DNA from: Spirochaetaceae bacterium
Lineage (GTDB): Bacteria > Spirochaetota > Spirochaetia > Treponematales > Treponemataceae
Length of the DNA stretch: 64,000 nucleotides
Reading direction: 5' to 3'
Assembly (NCBI GenBank): GCA_017614995.1
Contig: JAGAAX010000050.1
Coordinates: forward strand, 1-64,000
Shown: positions 2,444 to 7,916 of the stretch, piece by piece
Layout: every line of letters begins with the position of its first letter
Position numbering within the stretch: position 1 is the stretch's first letter
Program-made: the position numbers and the translations under genes
Notes under the pieces: generated by a model
Databases searched by the model: none
What the model was told of the DNA's origin: nothing
The model's input: only the letters and a program-made list of their open reading frames with translations

Positions 2444-3973
2444 TTAGTGCAAAATAACCTTATAACCGAATATGTTTTCAAATAAATCAGCTTTTTCTGC
2501 AAGCGCGTTGCGCTCAAGCGTCGTATTGTTGATTCCGTTGACCGCAAGATGCATTGCCTCGTCTTTCAGCTCAATCTTAAAGTCTTTGATGCGCTGCGTG
2601 TGTCCTCTGTCGAGCGCGTCAGCAAGTCTAAGAATTGCCGCTAATTTCTGAACCGTAATTCTGTCCTGTGGCGGAAGCGCGTAAAATTTGGTGTCTGTCG
2701 GTCTTGGCGGCACGCCTTTGTGGTAGCGCGCAACATTAGAGACTATAATCATGTCGTCTTTGCTTAAACCGAAAATCTCAGAATTCGAGATTATGTAAAG
2801 GCTGTGAAGTTCGTGGTTCTGGCTGCGTATAAAAGCCCCTACATCGTGGAGCAGGGCTGCAACTTCAAGAAGAAGCCGCTCGCGCCCTCCAAAGCCAAGC
2901 TCGTCCTGAAGTTTGTCGTAAAACTTAAGCGCGGTTGCCCTTACATATTGGGCATGTGCTTCGTCAACGCGGAATTTGCGGCAGAGGTTCAGCGCAGACG
3001 CAATTACCTGACTTGTAAAGTTTGCCTGCAATGCCTTGTTCGGGGCTGTGTATTTTCCGGCGATTATTCCCTCACGTATAGAAGCTTTTACTACAAGAAT
3101 TTCTTCTGCGGCGGTCAAATTTATAAAAAGCTGGTAAGTAAGCAGATTTATCGTCAGCGAGCGCGCCTCTGTGTACGGAATCTTGAAATGAGCCGTACAT
3201 TCGTCAATAGAATAATTCTGAATCGTTGTTACAAATTCCTGAAAATCGTCGCGGCTTATAATCCAGCAGTTATCAGAAATGCTTTTGCCGATTTTGCCCG
3301 CGACAAGCTGAGCTTCCTGGCCGGTGGCGATAAACTGGTGTACTTTTGCAAGAGAAAGCTCTTTGTTTAAGTTTAAGCCTGTATTGTTGATGAATTCTTC
3401 GAGGAAGCGGCGTGCGTCTTTTTCTGTGCCCATCATAGATTTGATGTGCTGTTCTATAATAACTGTGCCGAGGCGGAGACTGTGTACTGCAACCATTTCG
3501 CCGCGGTGAAGCAGCATAAGCTCTGTAGAGCCGCCGCCTACGTCTATGATGATTGAATTATACTTTTTGAACCTCGGCATCTGCTCTTTTAGCGCGTTGA
3601 GGACCGCGATGTACATAAGCCTGTTTTCTTCAATGCCGTCGATTATTCTTACAGTAAAGCCGGTCTTTATCCGTATGCGGTCTAAGACGGCGTCTCTGTT
3701 TCTTGCCTCGCGGAGTGCGCTTGTAGCTACAATTGTGGTGTGTGCGCCGTCAATCTGCCATGTGGCAATCTGTTCTTTAAATCTGTTTAAAATCTGAAGG
3801 CACTGGATAAGCGTTTCTCTTGAAACGGAAGACGTTGTAAAAACGTCCCAGCCGAGTGCAGCGGGTAGTTCTGAGTAATCGATAAAAGACCAGCTATTGT
3901 CATCAGAAATTTCTGCAACAGCCAGTCTTATGCCAGTTGAGCCAATCTCTATAACGGCTTCAAGTTTTGTCAT
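2444..3973 (-). CDS. ppx: Ppx/GppA phosphatase with C-terminal HD domain
   Basis: Predicted exopolyphosphatase and/or pppGpp 5'-phosphatase. The N-terminal half is an actin-fold (ASKHA) domain with the opening EIGSTGIRLAVAEI, and IIDVGGGSTELML as the second phosphate loop. The C-terminal ~200 residues are HD-like (LLHDVGAFI, later ARYHKG). I chose the ATG at 3973 because it makes an ATGA overlap with the stop of the upstream glycosidase and begins directly at the conserved MTKLEAVIEIGSTG. An upstream in-frame start at 3997 would add eight unconserved residues. Whether polyphosphate or pppGpp is the main substrate cannot be told from sequence. Confidence 0.93.
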   Translation of the reverse strand: MTKLEAVIEIGSTGIRLAVAEISDDNSWSFIDYSELPAALGWDVFTTSSVSRETLIQCLQILNRFKEQIATWQIDGAHTTIVATSALREARNRDAVLDRIRIKTGFTVRIIDGIEENRLMYIAVLNALKEQMPRFKKYNSIIIDVGGGSTELMLLHRGEMVAVHSLRLGTVIIEQHIKSMMGTEKDARRFLEEFINNTGLNLNKELSLAKVHQFIATGQEAQLVAGKIGKSISDNCWIISRDDFQEFVTTIQNYSIDECTAHFKIPYTEARSLTINLLTYQLFINLTAAEEILVVKASIREGIIAGKYTAPNKALQANFTSQVIASALNLCRKFRVDEAHAQYVRATALKFYDKLQDELGFGGRERLLLEVAALLHDVGAFIRSQNHELHSLYIISNSEIFGLSKDDMIIVSNVARYHKGVPPRPTDTKFYALPPQDRITVQKLAAILRLADALDRGHTQRIKDFKIELKDEAMHLAVNGINNTTLERNALAEKADLFENIFGYKVILH

Positions 3974-5409
3974 AGCTTGTCTATAAGCATAGAACATTTA
4001 CCGGAAGGAATCGGCAATGTCTTTTTCTTTTCTCCGAGAATGTTGATTGTAAAATAATAGAGCTTTTCGCTTTCCATGTGAATTTCCCAACCGCGCTGGC
4101 TCTTGTTAGAGAGAATCGTGATAAGGTTGCGTTTCAATGAAAGGTTTTCTATACCCATTATTTCAAGGTTCGGAATAATCCAGTCAACAGTCTTTCTCGG
4201 CAGGCTTATGTAAAGACCGATGACGTTTTCAATCATCAGCGCAATTGTAGAAAGACCTGTGTAATGTATGTAGCGCTTCTTCGGAAAGTTCGGGTTTGTG
4301 GCTGATTTTGCAGGGCCGTCTTTTACAGGCGAATAAGCTTCCCAGAGGTCGCCCTTTGTGTGACCGTCTAAGAGCAGTGCGTCAAGAATCTGGTAAAGGT
4401 GTCTGATTGAACATTCACGCGCCAAATCCCATTTCTGGTATTTTTCAAGACCTTTGATTACAACAAAAGTGAACGGCGGATAAACACTTCCGCAGAATTC
4501 GTTGCCGTCCGGGTCAAAATGCGGATCGTCGGCAGAAAGAGTAGGGAACGGGTGCGTTGTTCCGAAAGCCTCTGGATTTGTCAGATGTTCTACAAGCTGG
4601 TCTGCCTTATCCTCATTTGGAATTTCTGCAATCATCGGCCAGAAGCCCGCAATTGTTTTTACAGGAAGCCGCTCGCCGTTCTCGTCAAGGTCGTGATAGA
4701 AGCCTGTGTCAGGGTTCCACATAAGCGAGTTGATGCGCGTCTTTAAAGAGAAATACATGCGCTTGTACATAAAGCTCAAGTCTTTGTCGTTGAGAATGTC
4801 GCCCATTGCAGACATGTACAAAGCATTTACGGCGAGCGCACTGTTGAAATCAACAAGATATTTTGCGCCCTCTCTCGGTGAGTTGGTCATTGTTGTTGCG
4901 GCAACAGGGCATGTATAAAGACCGTTTTCGCATTTAAAGGTTTTTTCAAGCCATGTCATGTATTTCTGCATAACGGGCATAACTTCTTTAATGCGCTTCT
5001 TGTTTGCAGACTTGTGGTAGAGGTTATATTCAACCCAAGCAAATAAAGGAATTCCTACACCTTCAGGATTTTCCTTTGAAATGACAGGTTCGCCTGTCTT
5101 GGTGTTGTACTTCCAGCGGATAGCGCCGCTTTCTTCCTGCTTTGAGTAAAGATAGTCTAAATTCTGGTTTGCAGGGAAGTTTCTGTTTGAATAAACGAGA
5201 AAGAACGAGGCAAAGATAGATTCAAACTGGTCGATAATCAGCTCGTTATTCTGCGGATACAGAAACAGCTCTGAACCGATTTTATCTTCGGCAACAGCGC
5301 CAGTTTTGGGATCCTGCCAGAAGTCCTGTAACCATGACCATGCCTTATCATAGATGTCAACAAAATCCTGATCGTAAAAATGGACTTTAGGAAAATCGCG
5401 TTTATTCAC
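3970..5409 (-). CDS. (alpha/alpha)6-barrel glycoside hydrolase, MGH1/GH63-like
   Basis: A 479-residue protein without a signal peptide, so cytoplasmic. Stretches such as SLMWNPDTGFYHD, KTIAGFWPMIAEIP, FCGSVYPPFTFVV and DLWEAYSPVKDG match the pattern of GH63/trehalase-like six-hairpin barrels, where D and E residues in these loops are catalytic. The exact sugar substrate is not predictable; alpha-glucosides or mannosylglycerate-like compounds are possible. It starts with GTG 5 bases after an AGGAG site. Its stop overlaps the ppx start by 4 bases, so it heads a ppx-ppk1 operon, which suggests a storage or stress link. Confidence 0.75.
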   Translation of the reverse strand: MNKRDFPKVHFYDQDFVDIYDKAWSWLQDFWQDPKTGAVAEDKIGSELFLYPQNNELIIDQFESIFASFFLVYSNRNFPANQNLDYLYSKQEESGAIRWKYNTKTGEPVISKENPEGVGIPLFAWVEYNLYHKSANKKRIKEVMPVMQKYMTWLEKTFKCENGLYTCPVAATTMTNSPREGAKYLVDFNSALAVNALYMSAMGDILNDKDLSFMYKRMYFSLKTRINSLMWNPDTGFYHDLDENGERLPVKTIAGFWPMIAEIPNEDKADQLVEHLTNPEAFGTTHPFPTLSADDPHFDPDGNEFCGSVYPPFTFVVIKGLEKYQKWDLARECSIRHLYQILDALLLDGHTKGDLWEAYSPVKDGPAKSATNPNFPKKRYIHYTGLSTIALMIENVIGLYISLPRKTVDWIIPNLEIMGIENLSLKRNLITILSNKSQRGWEIHMESEKLYYFTINILGEKKKTLPIPSGKCSMLIDKL

Positions 5410-5540: not shown

Positions 5541-7916
5541 ATGTTTCAGTCTCACATTTATCTTGAAGTCCGAATTTTAGTTTCAACACAAAGAAAAGCT
5601 TTTATGCCGGGCGAAAAGCCTGTTCTTAACAGCGAAGTCTGCAAAAAAGTCTGTGCGTTTTTAAAAGCCTTCAACTGCAATATTTTAAAGACCGTATATT
5701 ATGAGCGCCATAAAGAAAAACTGAATGTGCCTGAATCAGCCGGTTTTTCGGGGCTTTCTGTAAAAGTTGCTGAAAAAGGCGTTATGCCGATTGAATTTCA
5801 TAAAAGGCAGAAGCTTATAAAAATTGAAGAAGTCCGCATTGAAGAAGATGCCGGCCGTCTTACGCATTCAAACAATGTTTCAAGAATGGATTACACTTGG
5901 GCGGGTTATGCCAGTGTTCGCATAAGAACTGCTGCCGATTTTGAGCTTGGTGAAGAAGCCGAGCTTTTCTTGAATGAGCTCCGCCGCCGCATTCAGTATA
6001 TGCGCCTTGTCGAGAATATTCCGGTTGAGAGCCTGATAAGGTGCAATGCTTATGTTGCGCTTGCCCGCTATCCCGAAAAGCCTGATTATTATGTAAAGCT
6101 TAGAAACTTGAATTCGTTCAATTTTGTAAGAAAAGCTGTAAATGCAGAAATTGACCGCCAGGAGTCTGTGCTTTCGTCGGGCGGAACGGTAGATTCAGAA
6201 AGCCGTCTTTGGAACGAAAGACAGAATCTGACAGAAAGCTATAAGCCGCGCCCGACAGAGCCTTCTGAAAAAAGGCAGTTTGAGCTGCTTGAAGATGCAG
6301 AACCTTTTGACATGTCGGAAATTCTTTCGGAACTTGCCGGAGAAGATTCTGCCGGTGTTTCGGTTGACTCTAAAATTGAACAGCCTGCGGAGCGGTGCAG
6401 GCGGCTTTGCAGCCAGTATGGGCTTGTAAAAGTGCGCGCCGAATTTATCTGCGACGACAAGGCGAGAGCCGATTTTTTTGAAAAAGCTGTTTCAGCCGGA
6501 GCAGAACCGGTAATGGCGGCGCACTGGCTTTGCAGCGAATTTATGAAGCTTTTGAAATGGTCTGGTGCTTCAATTTCGCAAAGCCCTGTAACACCAGAGC
6601 GGTTTGCGCGTGTAATGATTCTTCTGAAATCAGGTGAAATTCACAGCAGCATTGCAAAGCAGCTTTTGCAGCACCTTCACGAGAAGGGCGGCGAGCCTGA
6701 CGAGATTTTAGCCGAAAACAACTGGAAGCAGATTACCGACAAAGAGGTTCTGCTCCCTCTGGTGCAGAAAACAATAAGCGCAAATCCCGAAGAAGCTAGA
6801 AAACTACGCAAAGGCGAGATGGCGCCGCTTGAGTTTTTGACAGGTCTTATAATGAAAGAGACTGACGGACTTGCGTCTCCGCTTGTTGTCAAAAGTCTTT
6901 TAAAAGAAGAGCTTCACATCAATATTGTCTATGTAATTTCCATGGGCGGCTCTATCTGCGGCCGCCGCACAAAAGACGGTGCTGTTATTGCCGCAGACGG
7001 GCGTGTCTTAAAGTCAATGCTTCAAGATATAGACCCTTCGATTCATTATCAGGTTGTGCAGCTTGGGCGTATGCTGAGCGAGGAGATTGAGCCGGCCGAC
7101 TGGGCTGTTCTTATTTCAGAGATTGCCTCACTTATTGCAACAGGCACAGCAACCGGCATTGTAGTTGCGCATGGAACAGACACGCTCTCTTATACGGCGC
7201 CGCTTTTGTACTGGCTTTTTTCTGATGCGGAAGTTCCTGTCGTTGTTACAGCTTCTTCTAAGCCGAGCGATGAATCGTCTGAAGCAAAAGAGAATCTGCA
7301 TTTTGCAGTTGAAACCGCCTGCAAAGAAAAGCAGGGTGTGTTTGTCGCTTTTGGCGGCAAGCTGCTTTCGCCGCTCAACCTTAAATTTGAGCGCCCTTCG
7401 CCGGACGGTTTTTCTAACTGGAATATGAAGACACCGCTTTATACTTGCGGTGCAGGGCCTTTGAGCGGTCTTTTCAATGGCTTTTTGGACGCTGACGAAT
7501 TTGTTATGCGTCAGGTTTTGCGCGAGGCGGCAAACCACATGCTAGTCTGCCGCGTTTATCCGGGGCTTAGAGCCGAAAGTTATGTTCAGCTTGTAGAAAA
7601 CGGAATAACCCACATTTTCTTGGAATTATACGAAACAGGCACAGGCAGTATGCGTAACGGCGATTATTCGCTTAAACCGCTTCTGACCAAAGGCAGAAAG
7701 AAAGGCTGCACATTCTTCTGCACTTCGCAGCAGCAGAGCCTTCTTGACTTTTCTGGCTACACAACAAGCCGCCGCATGTGGCGCGAGGGTGCAGTGCCGA
7801 TGGGTCGTCTGACGACAGAATCTGCGGTTGCGCTTTATTTTGCGGCAAGCCTTGTCTCTGACACAAACGAAGAATTAAACCAGTGCATGGAAGCCTACGC
7901 CGAGCTTTTTGAATAG
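5541..7916 (+). CDS. GatB/GatE-like domain fused to L-asparaginase (GatD-like) domain
   Basis: About 791 residues from the ATG at 5541, chosen for the GAAGG site just upstream; an earlier start at 5514 adds nine residues. Residues ~1-460 align along their whole length with GatB/GatE. Seen are PGEKPVLN, the EEVRIEEDAGRLTH block, KLRNLNSFNFVRKA, SRLWNE, and a YqeY-like tail (GEMAPLEFLTGLIMK). Residues ~465-791 are a type I/II asparaginase fold with MGGSI (Ser471 in place of the usual Thr), HGTDT (544-548) and a Lys at 615. Archaeal GatD supplies ammonia for GatE in Gln-tRNA formation; here both folds are one chain. Several GatB active-site blocks are altered (YLEVR for GLEVH, VRIRTAADF for the IEIVTEPDI-type block), so kinase and transamidase activity is doubtful. 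It stands alone, convergent with radA. Confidence 0.85.
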   Translation: MFQSHIYLEVRILVSTQRKAFMPGEKPVLNSEVCKKVCAFLKAFNCNILKTVYYERHKEKLNVPESAGFSGLSVKVAEKGVMPIEFHKRQKLIKIEEVRIEEDAGRLTHSNNVSRMDYTWAGYASVRIRTAADFELGEEAELFLNELRRRIQYMRLVENIPVESLIRCNAYVALARYPEKPDYYVKLRNLNSFNFVRKAVNAEIDRQESVLSSGGTVDSESRLWNERQNLTESYKPRPTEPSEKRQFELLEDAEPFDMSEILSELAGEDSAGVSVDSKIEQPAERCRRLCSQYGLVKVRAEFICDDKARADFFEKAVSAGAEPVMAAHWLCSEFMKLLKWSGASISQSPVTPERFARVMILLKSGEIHSSIAKQLLQHLHEKGGEPDEILAENNWKQITDKEVLLPLVQKTISANPEEARKLRKGEMAPLEFLTGLIMKETDGLASPLVVKSLLKEELHINIVYVISMGGSICGRRTKDGAVIAADGRVLKSMLQDIDPSIHYQVVQLGRMLSEEIEPADWAVLISEIASLIATGTATGIVVAHGTDTLSYTAPLLYWLFSDAEVPVVVTASSKPSDESSEAKENLHFAVETACKEKQGVFVAFGGKLLSPLNLKFERPSPDGFSNWNMKTPLYTCGAGPLSGLFNGFLDADEFVMRQVLREAANHMLVCRVYPGLRAESYVQLVENGITHIFLELYETGTGSMRNGDYSLKPLLTKGRKKGCTFFCTSQQQSLLDFSGYTTSRRMWREGAVPMGRLTTESAVALYFAASLVSDTNEELNQCMEAYAELFE

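Follow-up and report, generated by a model that had tools for sequence, protein, structure and literature searches.

The window, a stretch of 64,000 nucleotides from a Spirochaetaceae bacterium (contig JAGAAX010000050.1), holds at positions 5541–7916 of the plus strand one unbroken frame of 791 residues. The open frame, the Pfam matches and a table of site residues identify it as a GatB paralogue joined to an asparaginase-like domain. The GatB cradle part covers residues 1–280 (5541–6380, plus strand); its site residues were compared with those of true GatBs, and the Cys residues of the Zn knuckle are absent. The GatB helical domain (residues 281–385, 6381–6695) and the YqeY or tail domain (residues 386–459, 6696–6917) follow on the same strand, as seen from Pfam and a conservation comparison. 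The asparaginase-like domain (residues 463–785, 6927–7895, plus strand) is placed by Pfam, a site alignment and a tree. The gene has no gatA or gatC operon partners. Its neighbours are radA and three minus-strand genes that belong to a conserved neighborhood: a divergent MGH1-like/trehalase-like glycoside hydrolase gene (3970–5409), a Ppx/GppA-like gene (2444–3997) and a polyphosphate kinase gene (311–2434). The hydrolase, ppx and ppk genes give no functional clue. Rfam at the gathering threshold reveals no RNA regulator, of the T-box or another type, close to the gene.

An earlier note on this DNA described a GatB-like part followed by an asparaginase-like part in one chain. The intact frame agrees with this, and a domain search matches both halves, the N-terminal half being recognized as GatB: the protein matches GatB_N at 1e-30 (profile positions 38–255 of 277, truncated at the N-terminus), GatB_Yqey at 9.6e-38 and the N-terminal asparaginase model at 1.7e-30, with a weak match to Asparaginase_C under the cut-off. 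GatB homology spans residues 22–459. The NCBIfam models for GatB, GatD, GatE and asparaginase each match the protein but under their own cut-offs. The score for TIGR00133 (GatB) is 216.6, below the curated threshold of 314.8 for functional GatBs; the scores for GatD (99.4, cut-off 310) and GatE (50.1, cut-off 456) also fall short. A predicted structure from a five-sequence input has a mean pLDDT of 41.6, with values over 70 for the tail domains only.

In the window's order, 94 of 394 genomes carry this fusion according to a profile search with the asparaginase half, which rules out both a sequencing error that joined two genes and chance. The fusion is real and old. Intact copies score 399–577 bits and lie in ORFs of about 780–990 aa (mostly 780–900); broken copies and those truncated at contig ends score below these, and standalone asparaginases reach at most 103 bits. 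A true GatB is also detected in 86 of the 94 genomes, the other eight being drafts of 74–92% completeness, and there is no fusion among the 72 genomes of the order without any GatB match. The gene is missing from many GatB-bearing relatives in the order, and copies in two genomes (L111 in G010 and L108 in G024) are interrupted by stop codons or by a break in the frame. This absence and these broken copies show that the gene is dispensable. L108 and L111 are possibly pseudogenes or assembly errors; a frame break near residue 737 is also seen in L036 (G006).

The genome of the window has one intact GatB gene besides the fused gene, located directly after gatA and gatC. The presence of gatCAB elsewhere in the genome, which the earlier note had proposed to check, is thus confirmed, and since this gatC-gatA-gatB set is complete and separate, the fused gene is an extra. 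No glutaminyl-tRNA synthetase match reached the cut-off in this genome, so its GatCAB presumably serves Gln-tRNA(Gln). A genome search found no second asparaginase-fold gene. In the order as a whole, GatB is present and GlnRS mostly absent in family f1, f5 genomes mostly have both, and most genomes of families f3 and f4 are GlnRS-positive and GatB-free. Three genomes of genus g3 in the window's own family (G296, G355 and G363) have a full GlnRS although the family is otherwise without it, which looks like a recent gain.

Yeast GatB binds ATP through E34, T189, N230 and S232 and Mg through H36, E156 and E186, and its YqeY and helical domains anchor the tRNA (PMC4027206). The window protein does not have this complete ligand set of E, H, E, E, T, N and S. 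It retains E9, E101 and T130, but His is replaced by R11 (5571, plus strand), Glu by R127 (5919, plus strand), Asn by Y171 and Ser by A173; outside these ligands N169 (6045) replaces an Asp and K186 (6096) a Glu of true GatBs, again on the plus strand. The same changes are found in the fusion relatives. The H36 column is Arg in 58/58, the E186 column is Arg in 56/59 and the N230 column is Tyr, Phe or His in 59/59, while all 59 have Asn for the Asp of RCDAN and Lys for the Glu of ELKNLNS. The columns of E34, E156 and T189 are unchanged among these relatives. In contrast, the original His, Glu, Asp, Asn and Glu are retained in 66/66 true GatBs compared. A comparison of the 88 columns that are invariant in the 66 true GatBs shows that 22 are kept in the window family, nine have fixed swaps, 49 are variable and eight are deleted, the deletions being mostly of the Zn knuckle, which the window protein lacks. 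The N-terminus of the family is eroding. However, the new fixed site residues are common to families f1, f2 and f5, and fixation of the same residues across relatives is not what random decay would produce and indicates that the GatB pocket was rebuilt. These columns provide good support for a GatB half that is predicted to be without catalysis, i.e., kinase-dead.

The asparaginase-like half is altered in a similar way. The Pyrococcus horikoshii asparaginase requires T11, Y21, S52, T53, T83, D84, K154 and K274 (PMC8470970), of which only S52, T83 and D84 are kept in the window protein. T11, S52, T83 and K154 are present in 16/16 standalone spirochaete asparaginases; in the fused domain T11 is Ala or Ser (rarely Thr), T53 is Glu and K154 is Phe or Tyr, with S52, T83 and D84 mostly retained. 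Aligned positions on the plus strand are S471 at the nucleophile position (6951), S513-E514 (7077), T546-D547 (7176) and F616 in the catalytic Lys column (7386, gap-free alignment). The HGTDT motif noted earlier is present and Ser does replace the nucleophile Thr, but the catalytic Lys that was thought to be kept is K615, one residue before the Lys column. That column is Phe or Tyr in 84/84 fused domains, i.e., in 59 relatives and 25 true GatBs that carry the domain (see below). With respect to the catalytic set of GatD (Thr, Thr, Asp and Lys), the second Thr and the Asp are kept, Thr is changed to Ser and Lys to Phe. The nucleophile column in the 59 relatives is Ala in 44, Ser in eight and Thr in six; Thr546 is retained in 53/59 and Asp547 in 56/59, and Ser513, Asp547 and Glu695 are nearly invariant. 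The asparaginase half thus looks catalytically dead as judged by its residues, although Thr or Ser at the nucleophile column in some members leaves some room for activity. The Thr in the six members (L102, L104, L117, L118, L119 and L069) looks like a reversal, since the putatively ancestral fused true GatBs carry Ala.

A class-wide search reveals many true GatBs in ORFs of 780–1000 aa. Among the genomes fetched, 25 spirochaetes have the same asparaginase-like domain on a true GatB, and all of these except G178 are outside the window's order. G178 has both an ordinary fusion and a second fusion with a fully intact GatB part, the latter being its only true GatB; apart from this genome, true GatBs in the order are encoded by separate genes that lack the domain. 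The GatB site is intact in 25/25 fused true GatBs, of which 24 have Ala and one has Ser at the nucleophile position. In every one of the 25 loci gatA lies before and aspS2 after the fused gene, in the arrangement gatC-gatA-gatB::asp-aspS2. AspS2 is assigned as an aspartate–tRNA(Asn) ligase in the two tested, and as it is a non-discriminating AspRS, these operons are part of the pathway to Asn-tRNA(Asn) that PMC4206432 describes. In fetched lineages that have a second, Gln-type gat operon the domain is on the Asn type only (G734, L212/L245; G726, L220/L249). The window family has the same domain order and shares the invariant SEE, CTSQQ and PMG..TTE signatures with the fused true GatBs (S513, E514, E515 and N613 in 84/84 domains; C727, Q730 and Q731 in 83/84) but not the intact GatB site. 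Loci of the fused working type are spread over many Spirochaetia families, within the series L163–L167, L208, L212–L229, L250 and L251 (not every one). In f5 genomes the window family occurs alongside aspS2 and a GatB that is free of the domain, and in the window's own taxonomic family the gat operon is without aspS2, yet the fused protein is retained.

A divergent hydrolase gene homologous to 3970–5409 adjoins the fused gat operon in 22/25 loci; two of the three loci without it are cut by contig ends. It also adjoins the window family in 51/58 loci, where ppx and ppk usually follow it, and this association of the three genes with the fused gene holds across families. The presence of the same divergent gene at both types of locus indicates that the window gene occupies the old operon site. 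In L163, ppx and ppk are also behind the fused gat operon.

A tree of the GatB half, made by a quick method with the altered site columns left out, groups the window family as a single clade (support 100). Fused true GatBs are dispersed over the tree, a pattern expected of an old fusion with losses. The sister group of the fused GatB of G178 consists of the GatBs in its family that have no such domain (support 100), and the separate GatB of the window's genome falls in a distant domain-free group. In the asparaginase-half tree the fused domains form one group against standalone asparaginases (100). A more careful tree of this half, unrooted, nests the window family within the fused true GatBs and has a split (96/97) that puts two archaeal GatDs together with the fused domains. 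The resemblance to GatD raised earlier thus has some phylogenetic support; descent of the domain from GatD is suggested rather than shown, as the tree is unrooted and has two GatDs only. That the window gene derives from a fused working spirochaete GatB, as a paralogue, is well supported by these trees and signatures.

Within the genus of the window, dN/dS is 0.06–0.10 for the GatB half and 0.03–0.05 for the asparaginase half; these values are rough because some dS values are greater than 1. Judged by them, the gene is under purifying selection. The ratio of distances in the GatB half to those in the asparaginase half is 0.58 for fused true GatBs and 1.27 for the window family. Compared with the true GatB of the same genomes, the helical and YqeY domains show higher conservation in 28/28 pairs and the N-terminus in 0/28; this comparison covers eight matched genomes, all of family f5, and tail conservation is lower in the window's own family. 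By these measures, constraint has shifted onto the asparaginase-like domain and the tail of helical and YqeY domains.

Selection has retained the tail, which is predicted to bind tRNA, together with a pocket that is without chemistry, and this is most simply read as a result of duplication and specialization. The window protein could well be a paralogue at the ancestral operon site that binds tRNA and a small ligand without catalysis and acts as a regulator or scaffold; this interpretation is preferred, but tentatively. Points against it are the absence of the gene from many relatives, the two broken copies, and its retention in the window's taxonomic family beside a gat operon that has no aspS2. 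The ancestral protein would have been the functioning GatB encoded in gatC-gatA-gatB::asp-aspS2, an operon of the Asn type, and its duplication would have been followed by a division of labor between the copies. The true GatB would have retained amidation and, in the window's order, either shed the domain (except in G178) or been replaced. The window-type copy in this order would have shed its operon partners and the kinase/transamidase site and retained the role of the domain. The tail and cradle would hold tRNA, ancestrally tRNA-Asn, and the pocket with Ser513, Thr546 and Asp547 a small ligand, probably Asn, Asp or a related amino acid. The protein with both bound may then regulate or scaffold amidation or Asn supply, similar to the regulation of HisG by HisZ. 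A more specific form of this proposal is possible but less probable: in many spirochaetes GatCAB may be amino-acid-sensing, with the dead GatD-like domain binding Asn (or Asp) and gating amidation of Asp-tRNA(Asn). The window protein would be a stand-alone derivative of this sensor, with the cradle pocket rebuilt and metal-free, and would link tRNA binding to the amino-acid level.

Alternatively, the domain may be a structural part of a transamidosome that dimerizes or docks AspRS or GatCA, with the window protein acting in trans and without ligand sensing. Asparaginases and GatD are dimers, which is consistent with such a role, as are the aspS2 gene that ends 25/25 operons of domain-bearing true GatBs and the pairing of domain-free GatB and aspS2 with the window family in f5 genomes. 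This is rather doubtful, however, since the window's taxonomic family keeps the protein with a gat operon that has no aspS2, and the near-invariance of Ser513, Asp547 and Glu695 exceeds the needs of pure docking.

The earlier suggestion of an amidase on a tRNA-binding scaffold survives in part, as the scaffold may stand. A deamidase that uses Ser471 or Thr546 as its nucleophile and acts on Asn or Gln, whether free or attached to tRNA, appears improbable. The Ser of the window protein, the Thr of six relatives and the retained Thr546-Asp547 pair would fit an enzyme, but Ala fills the nucleophile column in 44/59 relatives and 24/25 fused true GatBs, and the Lys column is Phe/Tyr throughout the 84 domains, as against Thr and Lys in all 16 standalone asparaginases. 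The idea of a retired amidotransferase is correct about the loss of chemistry but not about decay. Patchy loss, two broken copies and the eroding N-terminus are what a relic without function would show, yet the dN/dS of 0.03–0.10 within the genus, the new residues fixed across f1, f2 and f5 and the conserved locus make this very improbable. A one-chain bacterial GatDE-like amidotransferase, as first proposed, has the domain make-up and the 96/97 split in its favor and can practically be dismissed: all 59 relatives have replaced Mg/ATP ligands in the kinase, the Zn knuckle is deleted, the asparaginase nucleophile and Lys are gone, and a complete gatCAB is present elsewhere.

The presence of a nucleophile-less domain on a working GatB arguably outweighs the window gene itself as a finding. 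In many families of a single bacterial class, GatB, among the most conserved translation subunits, has an inactivated GatD-like asparaginase attached, and in the paralogue it is no longer catalysis but the tail and the dead domain that are under constraint. A search of open-licence papers gave no description of a GatB-asparaginase fusion and no paper on Treponema that brings GatB, asparaginase and fusion together; within this literature, neither the domain-bearing working GatB nor the dead paralogue seems to have been reported. A question that becomes testable is whether tRNA-dependent asparagine synthesis has an amino-acid-binding regulatory domain. Labels such as "GatB" or "asparaginase" on these treponemal proteins would mislead as to activity.

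Comparison with known systems shows partial similarities. The cradle, helical and YqeY domains are clearly homologous to those of GatB from bacterial GatCAB (TIGR00133), but the window protein has replaced ligands, no adjacent gatA or gatC and an extra C-terminal asparaginase-like domain. The spirochaete GatB::asparaginase fusion found in this analysis is the direct ancestor type, which has the same architecture and invariant signatures but keeps the whole GatB site and is located in gatC-gatA-gatB::asp-aspS2. Archaeal GatD/GatE has the same pairing of GatB-like and asparaginase-like parts, and two archaeal GatDs share the Ser-Glu substrate loop, YPG, TSQ and YST with the fused domain. However, these are separate chains, GatD retains its nucleophile Thr, the N-terminal part of GatD is absent from the window protein and GatE-specific models match weakly. 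Type I L-asparaginases (P. horikoshii 1wls and others) share the fold family, HGTDT and Ser52; the fused domain differs in Thr11 to Ser/Ala, Thr53 to Glu and Lys154 to Phe, and is on a separate branch (100). HisZ, a HisRS paralogue that regulates HisG (PMC9437257), is similar in logic only, with no homology: it is a copy of a tRNA-pathway enzyme that has lost catalysis and regulates.
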